From Candidatus Nitrospira nitrosa (lineage in GTDB: Bacteria; Nitrospirota; Nitrospiria; Nitrospirales; Nitrospiraceae), in NCBI RefSeq assembly GCF_001458735.1, contig NZ_CZQA01000010.1, forward strand, positions 310,001 to 374,000: a stretch of DNA of 64,000 nt, read 5' to 3'. Every line of letters starts with the position of its first letter. The stretch's first letter is position 1. Below, piece by piece: positions 1 through 19,215 of this stretch. The translations under genes were made by a program, and so were the position numbers. A model generated the notes under the pieces. It worked only from the letters and a program-made list of their open reading frames with translations. It had not been told where the DNA came from and ran no database searches.

Positions 1-582
1 CGCAATCCGTTTCCTACTCGACGCGTGGTGGAAGTTGTGCCGTCTTTTCGTTGGGAAGAGGTGGAGCAGGCCTTTGTTGACCTTCGCTATAAGGATCCCG
101 CGAACAATCTGCTGGCAGAAGATTCCTTCTCATTCCAGCAGGGCATTGCTGCAAAAACCTTTAGCGTTGATCTTCGCGACCCCACCCGCAAGACCGTCTA
201 TTACAAGATTTCCGTCAACTACAAGGATGGCCGATTCCTTGAATTACCTGAATCCATGACGAATGAGCGACGCATTCATGCTAGTGCCGATTCGAAGGGC
301 CGCCGGATCATTGGGATCATGCCGCCGGTCAACTTCGCCCAACGCCGTCTAAAACGTGTAACGGTCGATTTACGATTTGAGGACCTCATGTCCAATCTGA
401 GCTTTGCCGACACATTCGTTTTCGAGGCACCTGAAGCTCATGGTTCGTTCGAATATCAGTACGTAGACGAAACACGCAAGAAATATGAATATCGCGCCAA
501 CCTCCTGTTCGAAAACGGCCTCGAGCTCAATATCGACTGGACAGCCTCTGATACGACTGAACTGATCGTGAAGGTTCCCTGA
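1..582 (+). CDS. C-terminal part of a large beta-repeat protein (cut by window start)
   Basis: Frame 1 is open from the first base, so this is the last 193 residues of a longer protein. It holds two copies of an approximately 85-residue beta-rich repeat (about residues 20-95 and 115-193), each with the pattern VDLxYxD, a hydrophobic strand, a DxxxxxYxY strand and a DG or NG turn. The same repeat ends the 744- and 963-residue proteins encoded just downstream, so this is very likely a third paralogue. The next gene starts 10 bp after the stop, which indicates one operon. Function is unknown; a beta-sandwich or adhesin-like surface role is inference only. Confidence 0.75.
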   Translation, partial: RNPFPTRRVVEVVPSFRWEEVEQAFVDLRYKDPANNLLAEDSFSFQQGIAAKTFSVDLRDPTRKTVYYKISVNYKDGRFLELPESMTNERRIHASADSKGRRIIGIMPPVNFAQRRLKRVTVDLRFEDLMSNLSFADTFVFEAPEAHGSFEYQYVDETRKKYEYRANLLFENGLELNIDWTASDTTELIVKVP

Positions 583-592
583 GGAGATCCCC

Positions 593-2827
593 ATGCTTCA
601 ACTCGATTCTTCAGCGCTGATGATCGAAGGCGTCACCATCTTCAAAGATCATGCAGATCCACGTCAATTTTGGTATTTGCCTGGTCCTGTGGCGCTAGCA
701 CGGCGAGCAGCCGATGGTCGAGCCGCCTTCACGTTTCTAAAATTCAAACGACTACCCAGTACTGCGAGCCGAGGCGGCGGATTCCTGACATTCGAAGTGG
801 CACTTAAGCTGGATCGTGACCTCGAACGCCGAGTTCTCGAGCGTCTGTCCAGTATCTCCCGTGGTACTCCACGCCTGAGCGCTGTGCCGTTTGACGAAGG
901 AACCGTACAGTGTATCGCCCTCAACGTACAAGGTGCCGGCGGTGCCACTGCAGCATCGGATCCCAATGCTCCACCGGGTTCTTTTCGCGCCGTCCATACG
1001 ATTTTCGGTGCCGCGAAGCCATCGCTCCAAGGGGACAACGTCGCTGCCTTCAGCCTTGAGCTATCGGCCGAAGGTACAACGATCTTAGAAAAGGCATTTC
1101 AGGAACGAACCACGCCGGTCGGCGTAATCTATGACTTGAAATATACCGGACTACGTCCCGCATTCAACGTCAAGATTACAGCCGACTTCAAACAGATCTT
1201 CAGCCATTTCAGCTCGGCTGCGGATGGTCAGCGTGGATTTGTACGCGCCGGTATCGATCTCGGCTTTGAACGGTTGGTCCGCAACGGGGCCATTAAGATC
1301 GAGGTGCTTGATTTCACCAATACCACAGAGAATGAGACGCGCATCAAAGAAGCACTCGACTATTTTAAAGGGCAGGTACTCACAAACTGGTTTACCCCGG
1401 TCCTGGTGCCTGGAATCCTTGCCGCTCCCGCCGCTCAAGCCACTTCACTCGACCAGGTTCGCGCACTTGGTGCACAACTACGCCCACCACAACCGTCACC
1501 GCCGCCACGCCCAGACCCTTCACAACCCGCACCGGAGCCGGTTGATCATGGTCCAAGCCCGACCGCAGAGACCGGCCGCGGTGATACACCGCAAGGACTT
1601 CCGGGTACTGCATCTGCCGCCAATGTTGAAAGCCCAACGGAAGGGACAGGTAGTCCAGCTCCGGCAACCCCGGCTCCAGCGAGTGGCTCGGCCGATGTTT
1701 CCACAAGGAATCCGAATGGAGGTCTACCTGCAGCAACAGACAATCCAAATACTGCACAAAACGAAGGGATGGTTGCGTCCTTTAAGCTCAAGGCTATCCG
1801 CCAGGAGGAACAGCGTACGGCGATCCTGGAATACACACGTGCGGAAGCCCAGCAAAGAATGTATGCGCCACAGGGGTTTTTCGGCCTCCTTACCGCTGAT
1901 CTCGAACGCTCCAAGCACTTTATCGAGATCGACCTCGACGATCCCTTCTACAGGACCATCTCCGTTGAAACCAAAGCGCCTTTCGATTTTTCCGGGGTAG
2001 GCCTCAGCGAAATCCATGTCGCATTAGACTATGGACCTCAGAATGATCCGCAAAACTACAAACACGCCGACATGAGGTTCACGGCAGAAGATCGTGGGCC
2101 CAAACAGGTCGACTTTGCAGTCAATCTTCGGAAAGACCGTACATTCACCGTTACAACCCAGTTCCATTTCGATCCAACCAGCGGTTGGGAGGGCAAGACC
2201 TTTTCATACGAATTGCCGGCCAAAGAAACCTCTGATCGCACTCTCATTGTACATCCCATGGAGGCGCTTGGTTTTCTCGACCTTCACATCGAGCGTGGCC
2301 GCGTCGATCCAGGCATTGTCGATTTCATCGATGTCGAACTGTCATATAGCGATTCCTCGCCCTGGACCGTGAGCAAGACATTCCGCATCGCACCCGACAG
2401 CAGCCCACAGTCCTGGAAGCTGCGTCTTTCAAAGCCGGACCAGCGTGAATATTCCTACAAACTGACCCATCATCTGAAAGACGGCACGACAAAAGAGGGG
2501 ACACTCTTACGCACGAAATCGACCAGTGTGCTCGTCAACGATCTATTTCCTGCAAGCCTCGACGTAACGTTTTTCCCCATGCTCGACTGGCCGACACTCA
2601 AAGCTGCCGTGCTGGATGTCACCTACGTTGATCAAGCCAACACCTATACCCGCGAACAGCGTGTTCGGCTTGACCCCAATCTGACTGAAACAAATGTGCG
2701 ATTTTCGATCATGGATCCAAAACAGAAACGCTACCGGTATCAACTCACGCTGGTGCATGTGGACGGGGCAACCGAACGTCGAGCAGCGGTCGAGACCGAC
2801 GAGAACATGGTGATCCTTCTTACATAA
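593..2827 (+). CDS. Large modular beta-repeat protein with proline-rich linker (unknown function)
   Basis: 744 residues. Residues 1-280 form a conserved N-terminal module with DHADPxxFWYLPGP near residue 20 and an IALNVQG segment near 110. A Pro/Ala/Ser/Thr-rich linker follows (about 298-392), then a module beginning FKLKxIRQEE (about 396-560) and two beta-rich repeats (575-650, 668-744) like those of the gene upstream. There is no signal peptide and no membrane segment. A GAGGAG ribosome site precedes the ATG. The 963-residue gene two positions downstream is a paralogue. I do not recognise the family; the architecture suggests a structural or scaffold protein working with the adjacent caspase-like peptidase. 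Confidence 0.85.
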   Translation: MLQLDSSALMIEGVTIFKDHADPRQFWYLPGPVALARRAADGRAAFTFLKFKRLPSTASRGGGFLTFEVALKLDRDLERRVLERLSSISRGTPRLSAVPFDEGTVQCIALNVQGAGGATAASDPNAPPGSFRAVHTIFGAAKPSLQGDNVAAFSLELSAEGTTILEKAFQERTTPVGVIYDLKYTGLRPAFNVKITADFKQIFSHFSSAADGQRGFVRAGIDLGFERLVRNGAIKIEVLDFTNTTENETRIKEALDYFKGQVLTNWFTPVLVPGILAAPAAQATSLDQVRALGAQLRPPQPSPPPRPDPSQPAPEPVDHGPSPTAETGRGDTPQGLPGTASAANVESPTEGTGSPAPATPAPASGSADVSTRNPNGGLPAATDNPNTAQNEGMVASFKLKAIRQEEQRTAILEYTRAEAQQRMYAPQGFFGLLTADLERSKHFIEIDLDDPFYRTISVETKAPFDFSGVGLSEIHVALDYGPQNDPQNYKHADMRFTAEDRGPKQVDFAVNLRKDRTFTVTTQFHFDPTSGWEGKTFSYELPAKETSDRTLIVHPMEALGFLDLHIERGRVDPGIVDFIDVELSYSDSSPWTVSKTFRIAPDSSPQSWKLRLSKPDQREYSYKLTHHLKDGTTKEGTLLRTKSTSVLVNDLFPASLDVTFFPMLDWPTLKAAVLDVTYVDQANTYTREQRVRLDPNLTETNVRFSIMDPKQKRYRYQLTLVHVDGATERRAAVETDENMVILLT

Positions 2828-2854
2828 CGCTCCTCGATTGAAAGGAAACGACAA

Positions 2855-3763
2855 ATGACTAAGCGAGCCGTTATTGTGGGCGTCAATGACTATTCAGTAC
2901 AAAACAATGGCTGGCATTCATTGCGATTCTGCGTGTCGGATGCCTCGTCTTTTTACTACCTCCTTCAGGATGCATTTTTGTTTGACCCGCAAGATATGTT
3001 CTATCTCGTAGATGCCAATGCCACGTCAAGCCGTATCCGTCGAACACTACGCTATGTGCTTGCCATATCTCAGCCCGGCGACGTGGTGTGCTTCTATTAT
3101 TCAGGCCATGGGGGACGTACCCCTCATCCCTCCAACCCTTCGCAGATGTACGAAACCATTATCCCCTATTCAGGCCAATTCATCAGCGACCACGAAATCT
3201 TTGCAGCCGCCGATTCTTTACAACCATCATTCGTCAATTTCACCATTGTCCTCGATTCCTGTCACTCCGGCGGCATGCACAATGAAAGTGAGCACGCACG
3301 GCGCAGACGGTCGCCCATCTTTTCCCCTGAACTGATCAGTCAACTTGCGCAATGCACCACGCTCTTTCCATGCGGTATCTGTCTCCCACCACAGAGACGC
3401 CCAGTTTTGGCCAACAATATCACCCGTGTTTCCGCCAGAAATTCTGGCGTCGCCGTCGAGGAAGACACAAGTCGCCGTCTCGTTAAAGAATCGAAATCCA
3501 CACTCATCGCCGCCTCAACAGCCGCAGAGACGGCACAAGAGCATGAAGCAGTCGGCCACGGCCTACTCACGAAGGCGTTTCTCGACCTCGTCAACGCAAG
3601 CAATTTCCAGATCGATCATCGCAGTTTGGTCGACGAACTGACGACTCGCGTGCGCACGTCGATGGACAAGTACTTTCCGGGCGAGACTCAGTCTCCACAA
3701 CTGCGGGGCCAGGAAAACCGCATGGAGGAGAGTTTTCTCCAAGGATGGCGCGACAGCCGATGA
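2855..3763 (+). CDS. Caspase-family (peptidase C14 / metacaspase-like) protein
   Basis: 302 residues. The N-terminus RAVIVGVNDY is the usual first strand of bacterial caspase-like peptidases. The catalytic histidine lies in YYSGHGG (His85) and the nucleophile in LDSCHSGG (Cys136), so the dyad is intact. The remaining C-terminal part completes the p10-like region; there is no extra effector domain, signal peptide or membrane segment. Start ATG follows a GAAAGGAAA ribosome site 27 bp after the preceding gene. Being placed between two paralogous beta-repeat proteins, it may process them or a neighbouring partner; caspase-like proteases in bacteria often act in stress or defence responses, but no substrate can be named here. 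Confidence 0.9.
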   Translation: MTKRAVIVGVNDYSVQNNGWHSLRFCVSDASSFYYLLQDAFLFDPQDMFYLVDANATSSRIRRTLRYVLAISQPGDVVCFYYSGHGGRTPHPSNPSQMYETIIPYSGQFISDHEIFAAADSLQPSFVNFTIVLDSCHSGGMHNESEHARRRRSPIFSPELISQLAQCTTLFPCGICLPPQRRPVLANNITRVSARNSGVAVEEDTSRRLVKESKSTLIAASTAAETAQEHEAVGHGLLTKAFLDLVNASNFQIDHRSLVDELTTRVRTSMDKYFPGETQSPQLRGQENRMEESFLQGWRDSR

Positions 3764-3793
3764 TATTTAATCCTACTTATATGAGGCACCATC

Positions 3794-6685
3794 ATGCTCA
3801 GCCTTGAAAAACCCTTCACCATTGATGGCATCAGCGTATTTCGTGACCATGCAGATCCCAATACATTCTGGTACCTTCCTGGTCCCGTTGATCTGGCTCG
3901 ACGTGACACGGATGGTCGACTTGCGTTCAGCTGCCTGAAATACAAATCGGCTACACCAGGCGGTGGTGTGAAGGGTGGTGGATTTCTCATGTTTGAATCC
4001 ACCCTTAAACTGCCGGATCGTCTTGAACAGCGCATCCTTGCCCGAGTTCAGGCAGAACCAGGTGTCACGGGTCAGGTTCGATTGACTGCCGCCCCCTTCG
4101 AGGAAGGTTCGGTGCAATGCATCGCACTCAATGTGCAGGGTTCAGGAGGTACGACTGCCGCGGCCCCTCCGCCAGGAGCCTTTAACGCCGTAGAGCTCAT
4201 TCTCGGAGCGACCATTCCATCAATGGATTCCGCAAATAAAGCTGCCTTCAGTCTCACCCTTTCGGCAGAAGGAGCGACGATCTTGGAACAGGCTTTCCAA
4301 GACGGCCTGACACCTATCGGTGTGGCCTACAGCATGAAGTATCTGGCAATGCGGCCGTCCCTCGACGTCGAGATTACGGCAGATTTTGAGCGTATGTTTA
4401 CCCATTTCAGTGCGAGCCTTGAGGGGCAATACCAATTTTTCCGTGCTGGCATCGATGCCGCATTCGAATCGCTCGTTCAATCGGGAGCCATCAAGATTAA
4501 GGTGTTCCACTTCACTGATGAGCAGGATGAGAAAGATCAAGAAAAATGGGCGCTCGATTTCTTCAAAGAGGATCTTCTCTCGAAGTGGTTTGAACCGACT
4601 CTCACCCCTGGCCAACTCGCTGCGTCTCAAGCCACTGCCACGCCTCTGAGTGAGGTCATTAGTACGGGGCAAAACCTCTTGCAAGGGAATCGGCCGTCAA
4701 CCACCACCAGCACGAATACCGGTTCCACCGCACAACCAGGCCAATCTACCGAACAAATCCAGCCGGCATCACTCATCACGGACCGGACTGATCCTTCACC
4801 ACTCCCTTCCGGTTATGGTGTCGCGCACACACCCGCAGGCCAAGGTTTGCAGGAGAGCATCACGGTCACAGGTACCGGGGCGGTCTTGAAAGTGAACGGA
4901 TCCGTTGTCGCACTCGACGCAGGCGGTCGGGCGACTGTGACCGTCGACCCTAACTCCGACAAAAATATCGAGGTTGATTGGCCGGCTCAAACCGAGACGC
5001 GTGAAGAGGTTTTTGGCCTGTTTTTTGATTTTGATAAACCTACAGAGGCTGGATGGAAGACCAATCCACCAAGCCCTGACTTTCGCGCCTATGTTGAGAA
5101 TACGACGACCGATCCACGTTTTCGTGATGCCTCCGGCACGTTGCGAATCGAAGGCGACGGTAACTGGAGCGGACCAGAACGCGGAGCCGATCGTCTACGC
5201 GCCTGGATCCAGGCTTTACCAGTACCAAAACAGGTCCGGCTCGATGCCTATGCGAGTCATGAACATGTATCAGGAGCCAGTGAACCTGATCGTGAACGGC
5301 ATAATACGCGACTGTCACAGCGCCGGCTCGATGTGGCACAGGCCATTGTACAGCGATCCGGTGGCCAATTCATAAGCTCACCACCCCATGGTGACAGCCC
5401 GGCCTCAACACGCCCCGGCACTCACACACCCATGGGCGGAGATCCGGACAATCGCGTGGTGCATGTGACCGGTCGGGTCGCTGGTACGGGCCGACCCGTT
5501 CTTTTTCGAGGACATTTTCACCGTCCGGCCTCGATCCAGGTAGAGCAACCTCGACCACAGCCACAGCCTCAGCCCCAACCTCAACCAAACGCTGGAGGTT
5601 CAAGCAGTAGCACTCCCGTCGTGGCTTCTCTCAAACTCAAATTTATTCGCCAGGAAGAGCGAAAGACTTTGACATTCCGCTATAACCGGGCTGAAGCCGT
5701 ACGTCGCACGTATGCACCGCAAGGCTTCTTCGGTCTCCTGCTCAAGGACCAGGGCGACAAATCCAAATATTTCAAGGAAATCGATCTTGACGATCCTTTT
5801 TTTCGAGAATTCAAAGTGGAGGCCAGCATCCCAATCGATTTCGCCCGGATCGGCCTGTCCTCAGGACAGGTGGCGCTTGATTACGGTAACCCTGCGGATC
5901 CACTCAATCACAAACATGGCGATTTCGTCTTTACCTCGAATGATCCAGGGCCCAAAGAGTTTCGGGTGTTCATGAATGAAACCCGAGACATTGACTATGC
6001 AGTATCAACGCAATACCACTTTGATCCTCAGTCCGGATGGACCGGAGATCGATTCAGCTACGAGATACCTCCATCCAGAACACAAGACCGGACCCTCTTT
6101 GTCAACCCCTATGAGCATGTCGAATTCAGGGAAATTCCCATTGTCCCCGGTGACATCGACTGGCAGGTCCTCAGTTCCATTGAAGTACGATTGCAGGCCG
6201 AAGGCTATTCCACTCCTGAACCGCACACTACGTTCATTCTCCAAGAGAACAGTGCCCCTCAAAGCTGGAAACTGCGTGGTACACGACCTGCGCCGCCAAA
6301 CCGACGGGTCACCGTTGGGTTGACACATAACTTGAAGGACGGTACGTCGCAAACCACCCCCTCCGTGGAAATCGACGTACCAAGTGTGGTCGTTCACGAC
6401 CCATTTGTCGATGCACTCCGGCTCGAGTTCATACCACTTTTCAATCCCACCAACGTACAACGCGTCTTTATTGATGTCGAATACAAAGATACAACGAATG
6501 CCTATGAACGGAGTGAGCGTCTCGAGGTTCCTGGCACACAAACCAACCCGGCCAAGCTCCGCATCGCATTGCGCGATAAGGATCATCGCCGCTATCGATT
6601 CCGTTTAACTTTCGTCGGCACCAACAGCGGTTTTGATCAACGCGCTTGGGTTGAGACGGAGGAGCAACTCATTCCGGTACAATGA
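3794..6685 (+). CDS. Large modular beta-repeat protein with OmpA-like insert
   Basis: 963 residues and a paralogue of the 744-residue protein: same N-terminal module (DHADPxTFWYLPGP), same FKLK-type module start (LKLKFIRQEE) and same C-terminal repeats. The difference is an insert at about residues 405-570 with an OmpA/MotB-like signature: a VRLDAYAS strand, then LSQRRLDVAQAIV, then NRVVHV, which is the usual peptidoglycan-binding layout. A (Pro-Gln) run links it to the C-terminal part. No signal peptide is visible, so export, if any, would be unconventional. The stop overlaps the next start (ATGA), which indicates coupled translation. Confidence 0.85.
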   Translation: MLSLEKPFTIDGISVFRDHADPNTFWYLPGPVDLARRDTDGRLAFSCLKYKSATPGGGVKGGGFLMFESTLKLPDRLEQRILARVQAEPGVTGQVRLTAAPFEEGSVQCIALNVQGSGGTTAAAPPPGAFNAVELILGATIPSMDSANKAAFSLTLSAEGATILEQAFQDGLTPIGVAYSMKYLAMRPSLDVEITADFERMFTHFSASLEGQYQFFRAGIDAAFESLVQSGAIKIKVFHFTDEQDEKDQEKWALDFFKEDLLSKWFEPTLTPGQLAASQATATPLSEVISTGQNLLQGNRPSTTTSTNTGSTAQPGQSTEQIQPASLITDRTDPSPLPSGYGVAHTPAGQGLQESITVTGTGAVLKVNGSVVALDAGGRATVTVDPNSDKNIEVDWPAQTETREEVFGLFFDFDKPTEAGWKTNPPSPDFRAYVENTTTDPRFRDASGTLRIEGDGNWSGPERGADRLRAWIQALPVPKQVRLDAYASHEHVSGASEPDRERHNTRLSQRRLDVAQAIVQRSGGQFISSPPHGDSPASTRPGTHTPMGGDPDNRVVHVTGRVAGTGRPVLFRGHFHRPASIQVEQPRPQPQPQPQPQPNAGGSSSSTPVVASLKLKFIRQEERKTLTFRYNRAEAVRRTYAPQGFFGLLLKDQGDKSKYFKEIDLDDPFFREFKVEASIPIDFARIGLSSGQVALDYGNPADPLNHKHGDFVFTSNDPGPKEFRVFMNETRDIDYAVSTQYHFDPQSGWTGDRFSYEIPPSRTQDRTLFVNPYEHVEFREIPIVPGDIDWQVLSSIEVRLQAEGYSTPEPHTTFILQENSAPQSWKLRGTRPAPPNRRVTVGLTHNLKDGTSQTTPSVEIDVPSVVVHDPFVDALRLEFIPLFNPTNVQRVFIDVEYKDTTNAYERSERLEVPGTQTNPAKLRIALRDKDHRRYRFRLTFVGTNSGFDQRAWVETEEQLIPVQ
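5553..5591 (+). repeat. Short in-frame repeat encoding Pro-Gln dipeptides
   Basis: A run of CCN-CAR codons encodes alternating Pro and Gln within the 963-residue protein, between its OmpA-like insert and C-terminal module. It is a flexible linker and a possible site of length variation by slippage. Confidence 0.7.
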
Positions 6686-7608
6686 ATGACATTGAGCCAA
6701 TAGACCGAACCCTTGCCCTGATCAAGCACCTTGTGCCCCAGGCCTACGCCCGTGCTCAAGGCATTTTAGGCAATGTGCGAGATGCCCTTACCGCTTCAAT
6801 CTGGCCTGATATGGCTTTTCGATTTAGCTCATTGACCAACACCGGCTATCCGATCGAATTTGCCTGGTCATCTCGTAATCGGGACTTGCGCTTCACTTTC
6901 GAGGCAGCGCCGGCAGAGATACCAGATCATCAACGTCTCCCGCAGGCACTTGCGACCTTAGCAGCGTTGGGTGTCCATGGATTTCATGCGGTGGATGGAC
7001 TACAGCGAGCACAGATAGATACCCAATTGCAATTTGGTGCCTGGATCGGAGCACGCTGTTCTGAGAAGGATGTGGCCTATAAGCTTTATGTCGAATTGCC
7101 TTCTGCCTTGGTGAGCAGTAGTTGGGTGCAATCGGTACTAGATAAAAGCGCAATCACCATACCCAGACCACATATGCTCTGGCGCATGGCCGGTCTCAGC
7201 ACTACGGGTGGAATTGAACTCTATGCTCGCACCACAAACCTAGAGGCGATGACATTGCGTAGCCTTGTCCATCAGCTCGATGGAAACTCTGTCACGTTTC
7301 TGGAACTAGTCGAAGGGTGTGTACGACAGCGCGAACTGCCTGCCACATCGGGAATCAGTCTTGCCTTCGATACAACAGGGGCATTCGCAGGCCTCACTTT
7401 GTTTGTCATTGCCAAACATCTTTATTCTTCGGATGATCATGTACGCAATGCTCTCCTGGCACTCGCTAAGCCCAATGGTTACGATACAGCTCTCTATGAA
7501 GCACTCAGTGGAGGCACCGAAGACGGCCTCTGGCGACATGGAATGATTGGGATTGGCTTTCAGCGCGAAGTCGGTACCTGGATCCAGACCGGTTTAAGGC
7601 CGGTATGA
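6682..7608 (+). CDS. ABBA-fold (DMATS-like) prenyltransferase-like protein
   Basis: 308 residues, starting inside the stop of the preceding gene (ATGA). The sequence reads as about five repeats of paired strands followed by helices: GYPIEFAWSS...RFTFE, VAYKLYVELP, GGIELYARTT, ISLAFDT...LTLFV and GIGFQREVG. Five such units and the PIEFxW...RFxxE pattern recall the ABBA barrel of aromatic (DMATS-type) prenyltransferases, where strand-borne Lys/Tyr bind diphosphate. This is pattern recognition only; overall similarity is weak. The next gene carries a terpene cyclase-type motif, which fits prenyl chemistry. It could equally be a structural protein built on the same fold. Confidence 0.5.
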   Translation: MNDIEPIDRTLALIKHLVPQAYARAQGILGNVRDALTASIWPDMAFRFSSLTNTGYPIEFAWSSRNRDLRFTFEAAPAEIPDHQRLPQALATLAALGVHGFHAVDGLQRAQIDTQLQFGAWIGARCSEKDVAYKLYVELPSALVSSSWVQSVLDKSAITIPRPHMLWRMAGLSTTGGIELYARTTNLEAMTLRSLVHQLDGNSVTFLELVEGCVRQRELPATSGISLAFDTTGAFAGLTLFVIAKHLYSSDDHVRNALLALAKPNGYDTALYEALSGGTEDGLWRHGMIGIGFQREVGTWIQTGLRPV

Positions 7609-8384
7609 CAGCTCATTTTCTTCCAAGCGTCGTCATGATTAATGGCACCAGTTATCCAGATATAAATGGCTTCGTAACAGCACTTGGCATTCGCGCACTG
7701 CGGCTCTCAGGCCAATACGTCCCTCCACCGATGCTCGACGCGCTCGAAATCTGCCGCACAGAACAGGGAGGGTTTCGTTTTTGGTCGTCCACTCATCGCC
7801 CGCATTGGGCTCCTGATCTCCCCGACGACGCAGATGACACGGCTCTCATGACGCTTGAGCTCTATCTTCTGGGCCGTTTGAGCCGAGACGAGGCGCGGAG
7901 GATCGCCTGCCTAAGCCTCGTACGACATCGTGTCAGGCGGCTCGAGGGAGTAGGCCCCCCGTGGAGACGTGTCGGCGTATTCAAGACCTGGGCACGTGAA
8001 ACGACTGAGACTGACCTCATTGACTGCACAGCACATGCGAATATCCTCGCATTGATGGCCACGCTCGGCCTCCTTCATCTCCCTGGCGTTCGAGAGACCT
8101 ATGCGATGCTCGACGCCGCATTGGATTTTGCACAAGATGACGTGGATCGCGCCAATTCGCTGTCGCCCTTCTATCCTCATCCCGAAGAATTTGTTCTTGC
8201 ACTTGACCATGCTTGGCGATCTGGCGCCCACGATCTTGCCCCCTTAGCTCGTCGTGCTGCTCGTACATCGTGGGGCCGTGACGCGCATCGAAATACGCAT
8301 GAGCCCGATTACGCGATTTGTTCGAGCCCGTATGGGCAAGCACGGTGGTTTTCCCCCGCACTGGCGAGGCTGCGTGCAGACTGA
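7605..8384 (+). CDS. Terpene cyclase-like alpha-toroid protein with DADDTA motif
   Basis: 259 residues, coupled to the preceding gene by a 4-bp overlap. At about residues 58-90 a GGFRFW segment is followed by PDDADDTALM, which matches the DxDDTA catalytic-acid motif of class II terpene cyclases, and the rest is helical as expected of an alpha/alpha toroid. At 259 residues it is much shorter than squalene-hopene or diterpene cyclases and corresponds to about one domain. Either it is a minimal cyclase or partner for the ABBA-like protein before it, or a non-enzymatic relative. The motif is seen; the activity is inference. Confidence 0.55.
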   Translation: MTAHFLPSVVMINGTSYPDINGFVTALGIRALRLSGQYVPPPMLDALEICRTEQGGFRFWSSTHRPHWAPDLPDDADDTALMTLELYLLGRLSRDEARRIACLSLVRHRVRRLEGVGPPWRRVGVFKTWARETTETDLIDCTAHANILALMATLGLLHLPGVRETYAMLDAALDFAQDDVDRANSLSPFYPHPEEFVLALDHAWRSGAHDLAPLARRAARTSWGRDAHRNTHEPDYAICSSPYGQARWFSPALARLRAD

Positions 8385-8679
8385 AGCACCTACAATCGCA
8401 GAGAGGTAATGGATTTATTGGAGGTCCTTTTCGACAGGTTCTTCACACCTTGGTATTACGCTGTATCCAGGGTGTCTCAGACTGAGTACTCACGATCTAG
8501 CTCTTCCAAGCAGTGAGTGACAAACTTGAACACAGCGCGGTCTTGAAACACCTCATCCGCTATGCAACGCCCATTCGTCAAAACAGAACCAATTTGTGAT
8601 TTTCACTTCTATGACTTGGTGTAGGTACTTACTACGTGTTGGACAGATCCCCAGCATCATCTAAAAAGAGGTTTCTCCG
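8385..8679. other. Intergenic stretch, no gene recognised
   Basis: Nothing complete is visible between the terpene-cyclase-like gene and the tail-fibre cluster. On the minus strand 8477-8605 gives a 41-codon stop-to-stop fragment (ending LDREYSV) that reads like protein and could be a transposase remnant, but it is too short to assign. Confidence 0.4.
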
Positions 8680-8937
8680 TTGCTCCGTCGCATAGTTCTC
8701 ACCTGTGCATTCACCCTCGTGCCTACCTCAGCCTCTAGCCGGGGAATCAATGAACCATGGACGGAAGAGTCGTACTACGGCAGCCACGGAACTTTCTTCG
8801 CAGAGATAACTAATGATGGCCCGAGTCCAACTCGTCCCCATTATCGGAGACAAGTACGACGGATGGACTTTGAGATAGCTCGGTTACGTTGCTCAGCAAA
8901 GGCTGAACTACGCAATCATTCACAATCTTTTGTATAG
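8680..8937 (+). CDS. Possible small secreted protein (doubtful)
   Basis: An 85-residue frame starts with TTG eight bases after AAGAGG. Residues 1-19 (RRIVLTCAFTLVPTSAS) resemble a signal peptide with an Ala/Ser cleavage region; the remainder is polar with no known motif. It ends 14 bp before the next ATG. No homologue is recognised; it may be a spurious or decayed gene. Confidence 0.25.
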   Translation: MLRRIVLTCAFTLVPTSASSRGINEPWTEESYYGSHGTFFAEITNDGPSPTRPHYRRQVRRMDFEIARLRCSAKAELRNHSQSFV

Positions 8938-8950
8938 GAGGAGTTCGCAG

Positions 8951-10240
8951 ATGAATCCGACCGTCAATGAACAACCAACTGACAATGAGTCTGGAAAAAC
9001 ATACTATCTTGATGGAGTTCTTGGAATTGGGACCCAAGAACCGCAAGCCCAACTCCATCTCTCAGCAGAGGGACCCTTCGGAGATCTGAGGATTTTTTCC
9101 CCCAAAGACCCTGGAGCTGATCTCGCGTACAACGGGGGCAGTGATAATGTATTCTTCTTTGACCATTATGGATCTGACGCAGGAACAACGCACTTCCGCC
9201 ATAGTAATCGAGATCTCCTTGTCATCAAGAACGACGGCAATATCGGGATCGGCACGGCCAGCCCGAACCACCGCCTCCAGGTCACCGGAGGCAACGGAGT
9301 GATCAACAACGTGTTTCTCGGCGATGTCGGACATGGACCAGATTGGGCTGGGTTAAGCCACGCCAGTGCCACCAGTCCGACTATCTATGGATTTCTCCAT
9401 CACAGCAGCGGCCAATATGCACTGATCAACAAGAAGTCCGGCGCTGGCTGGATCGGTTTCCGTGTCGATAATCAGGACAAGATGGTGATTACTGACAGTG
9501 GCGATATCCAGCTCAACGGAAAACACGCCTTTCGCTCAACTGATCTATGGTTGCGCTTAAACCAAGACGGAGCATTTCCTAGCGGAGTCCATACTCCTGG
9601 ATTGTTTGCTCCGATGGGGCTCAATGTCGGAGGATCGAGGGGGTGGGAATTCAATCCGGGAAACGGCTGCGCCGTTTTTGCGGGTACCATTGGAACCAAT
9701 GGGTACCCCGCAACCCCTAAAAAATCAGGTTGGGGGGGAGGGATTCGCACATGGGACATCGAAGCAGAAGGAACAATCTGGTCGGCTCATGGCATCGATA
9801 CAAGTCCTCATGACCTGGCCGAGAACTATTTTTCTGATATGGAGATCGAAGCGGGAGATGTGGTGTGTTTAGATCCGAAGGACGATCGCATTGTCAGATC
9901 AGAACGGGCAAACGATAGCCTCGCATTGGGTGTGATTTCTACGCAGCCGGGGTTCTTGTTGAATGCTGAACATGGAGAAGCCGATGATCGGAAGGACGGG
10001 AAACGAGCGTATCCCGTTGCCTTAAGCGGACGTGTTCCCTGCCGCGTGACGGCTGAGAATGGACCGATCACCAGAGGAGATCTCCTGACTTCATCGTCGA
10101 TGAGAGGGCATGCAATGAAAGCGACGCCCCGTATCGTGGATGGGATGGAACTCCATGCTCCAGGGACCATCATCGGGAAGGCATTGGAGTCGCTGACTGA
10201 GGGAGTGGGTATCATCGAGGTTTTTGTCACCTTGAGATGA
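8951..10240 (+). CDS. Tail-fibre-like protein with GxIGIGT repeats and G2-type C-terminus
   Basis: 429 residues from the ATG preceded by AGGAGGAG. The N-terminus (YYLDGVLGIGTQEPQAQLHL, then GNIGIGTASP) has the repeated GIGT/xPxxxLxV turns common in phage tail fibres and trimeric surface proteins. The last 150 residues (DLAENYFS, GDVVCLD, LALGVIST, GDLLTSS, GKALE) resemble the autoprocessing intramolecular-chaperone end (peptidase G2-like) of phage appendage proteins. The first 110 residues are nearly the same as those of the 535-residue protein downstream, including at DNA level, so the two arose by duplication with exchange of the C-terminal part. Likely trimeric host- or surface-binding fibre. 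Confidence 0.7.
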   Translation: MNPTVNEQPTDNESGKTYYLDGVLGIGTQEPQAQLHLSAEGPFGDLRIFSPKDPGADLAYNGGSDNVFFFDHYGSDAGTTHFRHSNRDLLVIKNDGNIGIGTASPNHRLQVTGGNGVINNVFLGDVGHGPDWAGLSHASATSPTIYGFLHHSSGQYALINKKSGAGWIGFRVDNQDKMVITDSGDIQLNGKHAFRSTDLWLRLNQDGAFPSGVHTPGLFAPMGLNVGGSRGWEFNPGNGCAVFAGTIGTNGYPATPKKSGWGGGIRTWDIEAEGTIWSAHGIDTSPHDLAENYFSDMEIEAGDVVCLDPKDDRIVRSERANDSLALGVISTQPGFLLNAEHGEADDRKDGKRAYPVALSGRVPCRVTAENGPITRGDLLTSSSMRGHAMKATPRIVDGMELHAPGTIIGKALESLTEGVGIIEVFVTLR

Positions 10241-10328
10241 GCCTCACTGATGAGCGAGGTGGTCTCAGTTAGCCTCAATGGCACAACGACGTTATGAGCA
10301 TGACATCACTTAGGAAGAGGAGAATACC

Positions 10329-10577
10329 ATGCGTCAACAACTACAACGACGGCTAGGAGAACTGAAGAGGGAATTCAACGCAGGGCGCGCACGAGTGACT
10401 GAGCTGGAACAACAACAAACCACGCTGCACCAGACGTTGTTACGAATCAGCGGAGCAATCCAAGTCTTGGAGGAAGAGCTCAAATCCAGCGGCACTCCTG
10501 AGGATAAGCCAATTGGCAATACGACACGAGTGGACTCGACCCAGAGCAACGGCGCTCGAAGCCAGGTTGGAGCCTGA
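10329..10577 (+). CDS. Small coiled-coil protein
   Basis: 82 residues with a GAAGAGGAGA ribosome site before ATG. Residues 1-55 form a heptad-rich, charged helix (LQRRLGELKREF, VTELEQQQTTLHQTLLR, IQVLEEEL) and the tail is Gly/Ser/Thr/Asn-rich. It sits between two fibre-like genes and may be an assembly chaperone or trimerisation partner; this is inferred from position and helix type only. Confidence 0.6.
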   Translation: MRQQLQRRLGELKREFNAGRARVTELEQQQTTLHQTLLRISGAIQVLEEELKSSGTPEDKPIGNTTRVDSTQSNGARSQVGA

Positions 10578-10763
10578 TTAGGCCACAGATTCTATTCGCA
10601 GGTCGGCGCAAAACTAAGTTAAAGCCTTTTAGGCCCTACTGTTTTCAATGTTCCCGATCGAAGCAGATTGGCCTATAGGTTATTCACTACCTTTAGTAGT
10701 CTAACAAGCAGTCACAGCGATGTGCTCTGCGACATGGCATTTTCCACCGAAAGGAGTTTGCAG

Positions 10764-12371
10764 ATGAGTCCGGCTCTCAATGACGGACAGAATGACAATG
10801 CGGCGGACAAAACCTATTACCTGGATGGAGTTCTTGGGATTGGGACGCAGGAACCGCAAGCCCAACTTCATCTCTCAGCAGGGGACGCTTGGGGAGATCT
10901 GAGGATTTTTTCACCCAAAGACCCTGAAGCGGATTTCGCTTACAACGGCGGCAGTGATAGTGTGTTCTCGTTCAGCAACTATGGCGCTGACTCAGGAACC
11001 ACCACTTTTCGCCATGGCAGTCGAGATCTGCTTGTCATCAAAAACGACGGCAATATCGGGATCGGAACGGCCAGCCCAAATCATAAGTTCCATGTGGTTG
11101 CAGCGGACGCCGTTGGTTTGTTTGAGTCCACAGGGGAGCAAGCCTATCTTCGGCTCAGTACGAATGAAGGCTTGGACAGTCGAGTTGAGATAACCAATCG
11201 CCCAGGGGGACGATTGAGTCTATGGACAGTTGGTGGGGGTGATGCGCTCAACATTACCAAAACAGGCAACGTCGGCATCGGGACGACAATCCCTAAAGCA
11301 AAATTGCACGTGACTGCGGATATCATCGCTGGCAGTGATGTGAATGGGCAGAAATTTATCTTTCACAGCAGAACCAATGGAGGGGGCGATTTCCTTCATA
11401 TCACCGGAGATGATGCCAATGGCAACTGGCTATGGGATCGGGGGCTGGTTTTCGTACGGGGGACCGGCAACATCGGCATCGGAACGGCCAATTTGACCTC
11501 TCGGCTTCATGTTGCAGGAAACGGAGGAGTGTTGAGTCTCGAAGGGAGGGATCACGCATACATTCAGTGGTATCCGGATGGGATTAACGCCGGACGGAAA
11601 GCATGGATGGGATTTGGGGATGTAAACGAAGAGCGTTTTGTCATTGCTAACGATTTTCCAAACCGCGGGGTCTTATTCACTGGCAATATTGGCACCCGTG
11701 GACTTGACCCTCATGGTGGCGGGCATTACCCGAGTAACTGGGATGGAGGCATCCACACATGGGATGTTGTGTGTGAGGCAACCGTCGGGTATTCGGGACT
11801 GCGCCAATGGTCGTCCATTAGAGAGAAGGAAAATGTCGATTACATTGGCAAGGTACTAGACAGGATTGAAGCACTCAACCCTGCCCGTTTTGATCGTAAA
11901 CCGGGGTATCACAATCAGAGCAAGGGCAATCTCGGATTTATCGCCGAGGAAGTCAAGGAGATCTTCCCTGAGTTGGTGGATGCTGACGAGCAAAGTGATT
12001 TCTTTGCGACTTCAGTTCGAACTGATGGGATGCTGGCACTGGCAATTGCCGGTATCAAGGAGCTGTCTCAACAACTTAGATCTCTGCAATCCACCCTGTG
12101 CATCGATAAGCCGGAACACAACACCCTCTCGCGGTATACATCGTGGGAAGACCATACCACACCGGTACAGATTCTCCGTGAGAGCACCTGCCTTTCCAGG
12201 GACGGCGCCAACGAACAGTACGTCCTGGTTCGGTTCCATGGTGCAGTCGATGGAATCAGCCAGGTTCAATGTACACGCGCCTATCAGATCCCGAACGGGG
12301 TGACGAAAGATCTACTCTTGCAGGAAAAATATAACGACTGGTGCAGGGAAGTCCAATTGAAGCGAATATAG
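10764..12371 (+). CDS. Tail-fibre-like protein with S74 (endosialidase-type) chaperone domain
   Basis: 535 residues from an ATG behind GAAAGGAG; the open frame extends further upstream, but the paralogue at 8951 supports this start. Four GxVGIGT/GNIGIGT turns lie in residues 30-280. At about 350-445 is an S74 intramolecular chaperone domain: SSIREKENV (Ser/Lys self-cleavage dyad region), ALNPARFDRK, GNLGFIAEEV...FPELV, DGMLALAIAGIKEL. An extra 90 residues with four Cys follow the domain, which is unusual because S74 domains normally end the chain. Such domains fold fibre trimers and then cut themselves off. Confidence 0.8.
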   Translation: MSPALNDGQNDNAADKTYYLDGVLGIGTQEPQAQLHLSAGDAWGDLRIFSPKDPEADFAYNGGSDSVFSFSNYGADSGTTTFRHGSRDLLVIKNDGNIGIGTASPNHKFHVVAADAVGLFESTGEQAYLRLSTNEGLDSRVEITNRPGGRLSLWTVGGGDALNITKTGNVGIGTTIPKAKLHVTADIIAGSDVNGQKFIFHSRTNGGGDFLHITGDDANGNWLWDRGLVFVRGTGNIGIGTANLTSRLHVAGNGGVLSLEGRDHAYIQWYPDGINAGRKAWMGFGDVNEERFVIANDFPNRGVLFTGNIGTRGLDPHGGGHYPSNWDGGIHTWDVVCEATVGYSGLRQWSSIREKENVDYIGKVLDRIEALNPARFDRKPGYHNQSKGNLGFIAEEVKEIFPELVDADEQSDFFATSVRTDGMLALAIAGIKELSQQLRSLQSTLCIDKPEHNTLSRYTSWEDHTTPVQILRESTCLSRDGANEQYVLVRFHGAVDGISQVQCTRAYQIPNGVTKDLLLQEKYNDWCREVQLKRI

Positions 12372-12668
12372 CTGGTTGCGCTGTTCGATCCAAACATATG
12401 ACAGGGATCTAGGCTCAGGACTCATTCATTGAGAGAGAAGACTATAGCGGCAGCGAGACCAGTCGCAGAGAAGAAGGTGTGAGGACGGCACTCGTCTCAC
12501 ATAGCATGTTTCCGCCAATTCCTGACCCACCCGAACATGCTCTCGATTGTGTGGCGCGTGTTTGAGCAGGGAGCTGCAGCTATGCCGTATCGCTCGGCTC
12601 ACTGTCTACTGTGAGTGTAGCCTCTGCCAGAGGTCGACTTGTCCCGTGGCCCTCAGATCAGTTCCTTT
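12372..12668. other. Intergenic stretch, no gene recognised
   Basis: No frame with a plausible start or motif is seen here; it leads into decayed coding sequence on the minus strand. Confidence 0.4.
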
Positions 12669-12952
12669 CTATCGCTGAACACGAAGAAACGGGCCAAGTG
12701 CCAGCCTCTTGATCGGACCGAGTGCAACCTTATGCGGAAAATGCCCCACGTACCAGAAGACGATGTCTTGTTCCTGAATGCCCTCTTGGTTCTGATCGTA
12801 GGCGAACTCCCCTCGGACACCAAAAGACCAGGGTTCGTTTTCCCAACGCTTGTTACGCCGCACCGCAACATCCATGTCTGAAAATGAGTCCCGCGTCAGG
12901 GCTTCGTCCGTCAGTGGGCTATAGGCCTGACCCGGCATCACCCACACCCCGT
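12669..12952 (-). pseudogene. C-terminal remnant resembling copper amine oxidase
   Basis: About 94 codons read VWVMPGQ, then RRNKRWENEPW, GEFAYDQNQEG and DIVFWYVGHFPH before a stop. The D-I-V-x-W-Y...H pattern near the end, after an NQ...G stretch, resembles the C-terminal end of copper amine oxidases. There is no upstream portion: the frame runs directly into an IS3-type orfA remnant. It is a fragment and surely non-functional; the family assignment is tentative. Confidence 0.45.
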
Positions 12953-12954
12953 GC

Positions 12955-13087
12955 CCAGTCGGTGATCTAGGTGGGGTGGACACTGTAATTGTTCAGCCAA
13001 CTCAGCCAGCGTCATCTCGCCTTTGATAACGGCCAGGGCGACCTATGCTTTGAAGGTTGCTCCGTGATTTCGTCGTGTTCGCTGCAT
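12955..13087 (-). pseudogene. IS3-family transposase OrfA tag (broken)
   Basis: Translating the minus strand from the ATG at 13087 gives MQRTRRNHGATFKA, an in-frame stop (TAG), then VALAVIKGEMTLAELAEQL, followed after a frame change by HPT-stop-ITDW. This is the recognisable N-terminal end of IS3-group OrfA proteins (typically R-R-x-H-x-xx-FKAKVALAAIKGE, LAELAxxFxVHPxQITxWK). Two stops and a frameshift show it is dead. No orfB and no clear terminal inverted repeat is visible nearby, so only a tag remains. Confidence 0.75.
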
Positions 13088-13429
13088 TGCCTCGCGCCTT
13101 TGGGTAACCACCCCTCAGTGAGGCAGATGAAGCCAACCTACCACTTAACACACTGGTTGAATTTCCGGAGCCCCCTCTGGTTCCTTTTCCGATTGGTTCC
13201 CTATTGGAGCATGATCGTTTTGAATTCCCTCCGGGAGACTTCCTCTCATGCGCATGGCCGTACTCGTCGAAGTCCTCATTCGCAGAGGAGGTAACCGGAA
13301 AACATGCCTATGTTAGTGTTTACACTTATATTACGCCACTGTTAGCCGGAGGGACAGCCGGGAGGTACTGACGGCGAACAGAGACAAAAACAGACAGATG
13401 ACTTAGGACGCCCAATCCTCAATAGAAGC
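13088..13429. other. Intergenic stretch, no gene recognised
   Basis: Lies between the IS3-type tag and the hairpin/tRNA fragment. No convincing gene or transposon end was found. Confidence 0.4.
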
Positions 13430-13466
13430 GGGGATTGCCCAAGTCTTCAATGACTTGAGCAACCCC
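13430..13466. terminator. Hairpin adjacent to tRNA fragment
   Basis: GGGGATTGCCCAAGTC pairs with GACTTGAGCAACCCC across a 6-base loop, with one bulged A and one mismatch. It ends 4 bp before the tRNA-Thr 3' fragment. There is no following T-run, so termination is only one option; it may be a structured recombination-site arm. Confidence 0.5.
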
Positions 13467-13470
13467 TGAT

Positions 13471-13521
13471 GCCTGTTTTGTAAACCGCAGGTTGGAGGTT
13501 CGATTCCTCTCGCCAGCTCCA
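13471..13521 (+). tRNA. 3' half of tRNA-Thr (TGT); candidate attachment site
   Basis: The sequence runs from the anticodon arm (loop TTTTGTAA, anticodon TGT) through variable loop, T-arm (GGAGG TTCGATT CCTCT) and the acceptor strand CGCCAGC to TCCA. The matching 5' acceptor strand GCTGGCG and the D-arm are absent upstream, so this is not a complete gene. A 3' tRNA fragment with intact T-arm and CCA is the usual scar left at the distal end of an element integrated in a tRNA gene; the intact copy would then lie to the left, outside the window. Confidence 0.7.
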
Positions 13522-13553
13522 TCCCTCCTACTGCAATTCCTTGAAAGGTAACG

Positions 13554-14735
13554 TTACCCAAGCCCTTGTATAATTTCTTGATAATAGACGTCCAACATCC
13601 CAGCGCGAGCCTGCTCCACGATGACCAACTGGCGCTGATCGAAGGTGTTGGCACAGTACAGATAGTGCACCCCTGAGCCCCTTCCCCACTCGACATGCAC
13701 CTGTCGACCATCCGACCCCTGACGTGTGGTGTCTGCAAGCACATCACGATCAATGAGTTGTTCCCATGCGGCTTGAGCCGAAGGCCAATGATTTTCGTAG
13801 AGGGGATTCTCGGCATCGGGAAAGGTCGCAATTGCTTCAGGAGAAAATGGACGACCATCATCCGGTTCTGGTGATTCATCCCAGTCAACGGTCTGCTGAC
13901 TCCCCCGCTGCAACACATAGAACGGTCCATCCTCAACCGGTTCTTCGACTGATTGGTATCGGACTAGAATTGGAGGTTCGAGAAGCTGTAATCCTCTCGC
14001 CGCCAAGGCTCGCTGAAAGGGAACTCGTCTGGCCAGTTGCCTGGTCTTCTCACACACAATCACACGGCCATTGGAAGACAGAACGTCCAGAAGGTTGTCC
14101 AGCCGAGGGCCAAGCCCAATGCGCTGTTCAAATGACCTCTGGAGCGCGAGATCATGCTCGCGTTCAAAGGTTCGCCAACTTCGACTTGGAAGACCGGGAT
14201 CCTGCTCAGCCTGAACCAGCACATGCGTAGCCACCACGAGGTCGTAACCACCGGAAAGCGGCTGGATGTTTCCATCCATACAGTCGAAGCGAAGATTGTG
14301 CAAGCCCAGCCGGTCAGCCTGTTTCTGGGCGACTGCAATAGACGCGGATGACCGGTCGATTCCTAGAAAACTCTTCTCCGGAAATAGGCGTGCACAAAAA
14401 GAGGTCAGAATGCCAGGCCCACAACCAAAATCGAGGATACGTTTTGCGTCACTACACTGCACAGCCATCCGTGGAGCAATCGCCTCGTAATAGTCATACC
14501 GCTGGCTGTACAGCACCGGAAAAATCTTCGGCTGGGCCGCGAGATCATAGAACGCCGTCTCATCGTGATGATCGCCTTCGCGTTTTCGTTGAGCGCATAA
14601 CGCCAGCTGTTTGAGATCATCAGGAGAGAATTGTTGCTGTTGCCAGGCAAAGTAGTCCCGGTCGGACGTGAACCGTCGGAGTCCCCACCAGGCCAGATGC
14701 TCACGGAGCAATCGTTGCAGTGAATCATTGGCCAT
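13554..14735 (-). CDS. Class I SAM-dependent methyltransferase
   Basis: 393 residues. The SAM-binding motif I is ILDFGCGPG (about residue 98), with the acidic motif II residue in FLGIDRSS and motif post-II in FDCMDGN; FDLVVATHVL-like YDLVVATHVL follows. An N-terminal 90-residue segment with no known motif and a C-terminal 150-residue segment flank the Rossmann domain. The substrate is unknown. On the minus strand it lies downstream of the proA-like gene, separated by a 129-bp inverted-repeat element. It is the first intact gene right of the tRNA fragment. Confidence 0.8.
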   Translation of the reverse strand: MANDSLQRLLREHLAWWGLRRFTSDRDYFAWQQQQFSPDDLKQLALCAQRKREGDHHDETAFYDLAAQPKIFPVLYSQRYDYYEAIAPRMAVQCSDAKRILDFGCGPGILTSFCARLFPEKSFLGIDRSSASIAVAQKQADRLGLHNLRFDCMDGNIQPLSGGYDLVVATHVLVQAEQDPGLPSRSWRTFEREHDLALQRSFEQRIGLGPRLDNLLDVLSSNGRVIVCEKTRQLARRVPFQRALAARGLQLLEPPILVRYQSVEEPVEDGPFYVLQRGSQQTVDWDESPEPDDGRPFSPEAIATFPDAENPLYENHWPSAQAAWEQLIDRDVLADTTRQGSDGRQVHVEWGRGSGVHYLYCANTFDQRQLVIVEQARAGMLDVYYQEIIQGLG

Positions 14736-18916: not shown

Positions 18917-19190
18917 GGCGCCCGCAGTGTATCAGGTGTATCGTCGCCTGCAAGTAGAAGATCTGTTACAATGCCCTGCCACATGCTAGCCCGCATTATT
19001 CATGACAGTTCGTGACGAAACCGACGACACGCCAGACGAGACGGGCACGCGGAGCCCTGAGAAACCAAGGCATACTTAAAACAGTATGTCGAAGTCACGA
19101 AGGGCGAGCCTGCTCGCCTGGCCGCTGACAGACCGCGGCCAGGCTTGTCACAGCGGCGTATCGGCGGGTGCAGTAGAAGTGTTCATGAAC
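18917..19190. other. Intergenic stretch between divergent genes
   Basis: No gene is seen. AAGGCATACT TAAAAC AGTATGTCGA (about 19069-19093) is a small hairpin whose context weakly resembles the centre of the 130-bp repeats at 14742 and 30185, so this may be a decayed copy. TTACAAT near 18966 could be a -10 element. Confidence 0.35.
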
Positions 19191-19215
19191 AATGCAGGCG
19201 AGGGAGGCCGTGGGA

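Follow-up and report, generated by a model that had tools for sequence, protein, structure and literature searches.

Tycheposons are cargo islands at tRNA genes of free-living environmental bacteria and use tyrosine recombinases. Islander islands are recognized by an intact tRNA gene together with a displaced fragment of it, and an integrase is required (Hudson, Lau & Williams, PMC4383910). In the part of PMC8371274 that draws on Williams 2002, the anticodon loop and the T-loop are given as known sublocations of tRNA-targeting integrases, bacterial tRNA genes are stated to keep their original promoter after integration with very few exceptions, and use of the 5' half is described as seldom encountered in bacteria. 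Archaeal integrases of the pTN3 type, which use the 5' half, are treated in the same article, and tycheposons are named in PMC10872708. In a limited literature search, neither the palindrome reported here nor tRNA islands of this type in Nitrospira were found described. The island boundary analyzed below is itself textbook and of an ordinary kind; the palindrome-marked, two-sided family is the new part.

The 64,000-nucleotide stretch that was analyzed (the window) corresponds to C10:310001-374000 of a 15-contig, 4.42-Mb assembly from the genus Nitrospira (G000). Positions 13475-13521 on the plus strand contained the 3' part (nt 30-76) of tRNA-Thr(TGT), and 47 of 47 bp were identical to the intact tRNA-Thr(TGT) gene at C10:299099-299174. 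No other sequence in the genome matched the fragment equally over 47 bp, and an exact match of this length cannot be attributed to chance. An earlier note on this DNA had correctly named the tRNA-Thr(TGT) 3' half, but its length of 51 bp was wrong. ARAGORN called no tRNA in the window, showing that the 5' half is missing there, as had been claimed. The intact gene, which the note had predicted to lie leftward with the element in between, was indeed present in the genome, in the same orientation, 24,347 bp from the displaced copy. Identity between the two copies started 2 bp ahead of the seven-base anticodon loop (TTTGTAA, 13477-13483, plus strand). This 7-mer is the likely crossover (overlap) region because tyrosine integrases have a known 7-bp overlap, and the anticodon loop was also the break point in other elements at other tRNAs. 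The exact 3' half is common to most tRNA-Thr(TGT) genes in the genus, and the identity of the repeats therefore gives no date for the insertion.

Most of C10:267-288.1 kb in G000, and the stretch that begins at the tRNA core and runs rightward, had collinear counterparts with 95-97% identity in the close relative G032. Its flank (96% identical) held a single intact tRNA-Thr gene and, immediately after it, the methyltransferase gene seen in G000 (93% identical at the protein level), with neither fragment nor island; this is the empty site that the earlier note had proposed to seek among relatives. Collinearity resumed exactly at the tRNA part, and the backbone methyltransferase gene (13554-14735, minus strand; SAM methyltransferase Pfam hits; found in 44 of 59 relatives) had its boundary at 13554, 33 bp past the fragment, so the fragment marks the right boundary as that note proposed. 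Farther into the right flank, an interspersed repeat of about 217 bp lay between two backbone genes (18986-19202); more than 20 full or partial copies of it were present in G032 alone. The DNA 3' of the G000 fragment aligned with the DNA 3' of the G032 tRNA, indicating that the fragment represents the original 3' end of the tRNA and, in turn, that the intact tRNA-Thr on the left has a 3' end supplied by the element. Together, the intact tRNA and the empty site in G032 identify 13475-13521 as the right direct repeat (attR) of an integrated element.

Directly before the fragment lay a conserved 37-bp palindrome (13430-13466, plus strand), followed by a 10-bp spacer (13467-13476) of mostly element-side DNA, the last 2 bp of which (13475-13476) match the tRNA. 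We consider it very probable that the fragment is the attR of an element integrated by a tyrosine integrase, that the palindrome is the attachment arm of the element and that the integrase has been lost here. A tyrosine integrase would have joined the attP of the element to the anticodon loop of tRNA-Thr(TGT). With a new 3' half contributed by the element, the tRNA on the left would have stayed intact, and the former 3' half would have been displaced 24.3 kb rightward with its original downstream flank still attached. The palindrome before the fragment would be the element's own attachment arm, most likely a binding or structural site needed by the recombinase or an accessory factor beside the crossover.

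The hairpin comprised 15 pairs and a 6-nt loop by DNA folding and structure analysis; a 112-nt stretch folded better than 200 of 200 shuffles (z = -2.7), and no chance occurrence of the pattern was expected in the window. In a pattern scan the palindrome was found with 0-3 mismatches in 19 of the 197 genomes of the order, with up to 13 copies in one, and a reversed control pattern had no match in the same 197 genomes. A degenerate-pattern scan of 84,980 species returned 17 records, all from Nitrospira/Nitrospirae except one labelled Nitrosospira. The palindrome was not found in IMG/VR and had no match in Rfam. The sequence shared between the G000 island and the other palindrome elements was limited to approximately 13427-13467 plus the tRNA piece. 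In one group, the palindrome was followed by tRNA sequence that starts at the anticodon loop and comes from tRNA-Thr(TGT), Thr(CGT) or Lys(CTT). Behind other copies stood the 5' half of a tRNA-Gly, Arg, Pro or Leu gene in reverse complement, indicating insertion from the 5' side, and a few were followed by a T-loop-onward tRNA piece or by unassignable DNA. For anticodon-type elements, the palindrome-to-loop distance, measured by eye, was 10-12 bp across unrelated tRNA genes, whatever the polarity. Covariation was assessed in 20 diverse copies: the 15-pair stem was formed in 83% of cells, compared with 76% in shuffles and 31-48% in slid controls, and both sides had changed in 8 of 15 stem pairs (mean of 4.0 in shuffles, 1-3 in slid controls). 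The outer pairs showed GC-AU and UA-CG swaps, an inner pair changed from CG to GC in five sequences, and the stem GGAATCG/CGATTCC replaced GGATTG/CAATCC in the Phe and some Leu elements. One frame of the palindrome reads (I/V)AQV(F/N)DLSNP, with changes often at third positions; a role as a coding C-terminus was rejected, as the frame upstream was closed within about 10 codons in the copies checked by eye. A 177-aa ORF on the minus strand (13403-13936), which contains LARGIEPPTCGLQ, arises from reading the palindrome and the tRNA 3' end backwards, and ORFs of this origin may get annotated as hypothetical proteins.

The right-hand part of the 24.3-kb island, missing between tRNA and methyltransferase in G032, occupied 1-13429 of the window, and the remaining island DNA lay to the left of it (C10:299175-310000). 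Island proteins ranged from 245 to 963 aa. All cargo genes in the window were on the plus strand. They encoded a 744-aa protein of an in-island paralogue group with no Pfam, PADLOC or PHROGs match (593-2827), a caspase-like peptidase C14 (2855-3763; PF00656, E = 7e-21), a 963-aa protein (3794-6685), and two proteins of 308 and 259 aa with no family assigned (6682-8384). Two related genes with a small ORF between them followed (8930-12371), with a 300-bp repeat between the two; the second had a Peptidase_S74 domain (tail-fibre-type chaperone; PF13884, E = 4e-10) and matched phage tail-fibre PHROGs. The 744-aa and 963-aa proteins are paralogues of a 761-aa protein (L016 3298-5583), and the three lie beside the caspase-like peptidase. 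No Pfam family was found for these paralogues, and homologues occurred in just four other genomes of the 197, the distant ones in a different family (G081). With the caspase-like peptidase they possibly form an unstudied multi-gene system. No relaxase or T4SS genes were hit by Pfam among the island proteins scanned, and the Peptidase_S74/tail-fibre-type domain, present in one of ten island proteins scanned, was the only match among phage structural, packaging and satellite genes. A repeat of about 225 bp near the right end (12955-13178) recurred at C9:17354-17582 of G000, and copies approximately 70-80% identical were dispersed in most Nitrospira genomes searched. In G121, the island block was present at 89-92% identity over most of its length, and the backbones of the two genomes were 87-93% identical. 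That block also started at a decayed tRNA-Thr 3' fragment, and its left end was broken by insertion of an IS-like transposase (IS30-like by eye). The DNA at its right flank was unrelated and had no fragment, and the contig ended soon after the shared block. From these comparisons, the island block may date to the split from G121 and have been lost in G032, or it may have been exchanged.

No integrase or integrase remnant was detected in the island or in the block upstream of the tRNA with a profile of the integrase family and all HMMER filters off; the Phage_integrase hits of the genome all lay outside the island. Thus, where the earlier note pointed to an intact tRNA-Thr ending in the shared repeat and an integrase to the left of the window, the tRNA was there and the integrase was absent from the island. 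The left end was also unlike that of intact family elements, in which about 8 bp separate the integrase stop from the tRNA. The island had the distal end typical of palindrome-ended elements and no proximal family integrase facing the tRNA, and its tie to the family would accordingly be through the distal end only. The integrase was presumably lost from this copy, and the island is probably immobile and fixed, unless its 47-bp repeats undergo homologous recombination or an integrase is supplied in trans.

Intact elements ending in the same palindrome had a common plan: an intact tRNA, an integrase with its 3' end toward the tRNA, cargo, the palindrome and the displaced tRNA piece. A 9-kb element in G007 carried the same hairpin and the same tRNA-Thr piece, and its intact 371-aa tyrosine integrase (PF00589) ended at a distance of 6-8 bp from the tRNA piece at the opposite border. 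In both G007 and G149, the palindrome adjoined a tRNA-Thr 3' piece and intact integrases lay at the opposite end, 6-12 bp from tRNA sequence. Family elements with this plan included those at Thr-TGT in G149 (14.4 kb), Thr-CGT in G161 (15.9-16.1 kb), Lys-CTT in G059 (6.1 kb), Gly-CCC in G161 (13.6 kb, 5' side) and Leu-GAG in G161 (12.3 kb, T-loop). A profile built from ten integrases of palindrome-ended elements found the family in 62 of 197 Nitrospirales-order genomes. Among matches listed, these integrases were approximately 26-31% identical to phage and plasmid relatives, and all best matches were below 60%. Insertion points were anticodon loops or T-loops. Of 85 oriented copies, polarity was counted for the ones that had a tRNA next to them and an E value below 1e-100: 50 lay on the 5' side (about 70%) and 19 on the 3' side, at about 12 tRNA genes. 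Most of these assignments were deduced from the layout of integrase and tRNA, and members of both classes were confirmed by displaced fragments. On a tree of 70 integrases, computed by maximum likelihood in a quick search with SH-aLRT as the only support measure, polarity must have changed at least three times and the target tRNA at least 14 times. The palindrome was at the far end in 20 of 24 family elements with both ends delimited, as counted by eye (17, the one in G007 and two in G149), and the four elements without it all belonged to a 5'-side Thr/Arg clade. In the 5'-side Gly (L138, L247) and Pro (L249) elements, the integrase frame overlapped the tRNA gene by 26 or 7 bases, and the tRNA 5' end thereby encodes the last residues of the integrase. 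The tRNAs with 5'-side elements are probably transcribed from element DNA.

The tRNA-Thr of G000 had been hit from the other side as well. Just upstream of it, C10:299026-299070 reads ENTTGTLDLKAESL-stop in a DNA alignment, which is the C-terminus of 5'-side Thr integrases found intact in G031 and G003 (ENTPGTLDPKAESL-stop). This trace, the last 14 codons of an integrase, was the sole remnant seen, and it indicates an insertion from the 5' side. The native upstream flank of G032 was gone in G000 and a 10.9-kb block (C10:288144-299090) stood in its place; no 5' tRNA fragment was found to the left of that block. Within it, C10:290085-296908 (L013) held a three-gene helicase/PLD-like operon that matched the PADLOC candidate PDC-M27 A-C, with some Zac-like matches as well, beside a truncated PDC-S11 gene and a HipB-like regulator. 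Elsewhere, integrases flanked a single tRNA on both sides at Thr in G201 and at Arg-CCT in G134, G102, G171 and G055, and in G000 itself tRNA-Arg(TCT) was preceded, at a distance of 18 bp, by an intact integrase of the family (C9:346.4 kb). A second class of tRNA-Thr islands occupied the same hotspot in G004, G007, G012, G016, G019 and G023; its conserved right end differs, with GGGTTAGGTTGTCTGAGG before the core, and several members had an integrase of about 427 aa. Taken as a whole, we think it somewhat probable that these elements belong to a Nitrospirota-restricted family of tyrosine integrases in which a covarying palindrome is a fixed-distance part of the attachment site, either tRNA half can be used with the 5' half replaced in most cases, host tRNAs are transcribed from element DNA, and tRNA genes become flanked from two sides.

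The earlier note had suggested that the hairpin may be part of the recombination site. It is indeed part of the attachment region, since independent elements whose integrases are intact carry it at a constant spacing from the crossover in the tRNA. The hairpin could instead end transcription and thereby insulate the element or the tRNA, its nearness to the crossover being incidental. A GC-rich stem-loop at the element edge, a terminator-like score for the minus strand in this single copy and T-runs after some palindrome copies suit such a role, but most copies have no T-run on either side and the primary sequence is kept well beyond what a terminator needs. The crossover distance, constant at 10-12 bp at unrelated tRNA genes in both polarities, argues for a role in recombination over one in ending transcription, and we regard a terminator as unlikely. 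It is improbable, too, that the palindrome serves single-strand processing, as a replication or transfer origin or an attC-like folded site, in place of arm binding on a double-stranded att site. Such a role would fit a long imperfect hairpin with covarying stems and an AAA_25 protein in one intact family element, a domain type that we take to be associated with plasmid-like replication helicases; however, Pfam found no relaxase among the proteins tested, and so exact a phasing relative to the crossover in the tRNA speaks for recombination. Covariation of the stem would be expected equally from a palindromic binding site or a folded strand. Judged from sequence comparison, the palindrome probably takes part in recombination.

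The missing integrase and the atypical left end mean that the 24.3 kb may be a composite and not a single element, for which the chances are appreciable, if somewhat below even: a small palindrome-ended element would have come first and lost most of its body, and the cargo would have arrived separately by tandem insertion at the intact tRNA. With the same qualified plausibility, the palindrome family would then own the right-most stretch only. Tandem tRNA-Thr 3' fragments in G004, G007 and G149 show newcomers inserting at the intact tRNA and shifting older elements to the right, the left end has no family integrase, and the sequence in common with G121 ends at 320483, 3 kb short of the palindrome. 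Against this, no third internal copy of the tRNA-Thr 3' end was found within the island, and the G121 contig stops soon past the shared block, leaving the right ends not comparable. We infer that the island moved as one unit. A partial duplication of the tRNA by ordinary recombination, with no mobile element involved, would suit an island without an integrase, but the break coincides exactly with the anticodon loop, the native downstream flank is still attached to the displaced piece, a conserved element end adjoins the fragment and an empty site exists; this explanation is already largely refuted and deserves hardly any credence. Integration by a tyrosine integrase at the anticodon loop remains our preferred reading, and the boundary yields a sequence tag for finding a mobile-element family in Nitrospira, a genus central to nitrification whose mobile gene pool is little studied. 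At least three polarity switches and many tRNA genes make the family a natural series on how integrases change target and direction, and it bears on the consequences of mobile DNA replacing the upstream region of an essential tRNA.

Compared with Islander islands, the locus shares the restored intact tRNA, the displaced fragment at the far end, the island between them and an empty site in a relative; it differs in having no integrase, which is required there. Tycheposons, compared by description only, likewise form cargo islands at tRNA genes by means of tyrosine recombinases, but they belong to a different lineage, and the palindrome and two-sided use are absent from their description. The crossover in the 7-nt loop matches the anticodon-loop sublocation as set out in the relevant part of PMC8371274, and other family members use the T-loop; relative to the scheme as given there, a single family here uses either loop, occurs at about 12 tRNA genes in the two polarities and has a conserved, phased palindrome at its distal end. 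The closest likeness for the 5'-side elements is to the archaeal pTN3-type 5'-half integrases (PMC8371274), in which the element also supplies the tRNA 5' half and upstream DNA. Here, however, the hosts are bacterial and the 5' side is used by the majority of the family, whereas related family integrases also use the 3' side, even at the same tRNA-Thr.
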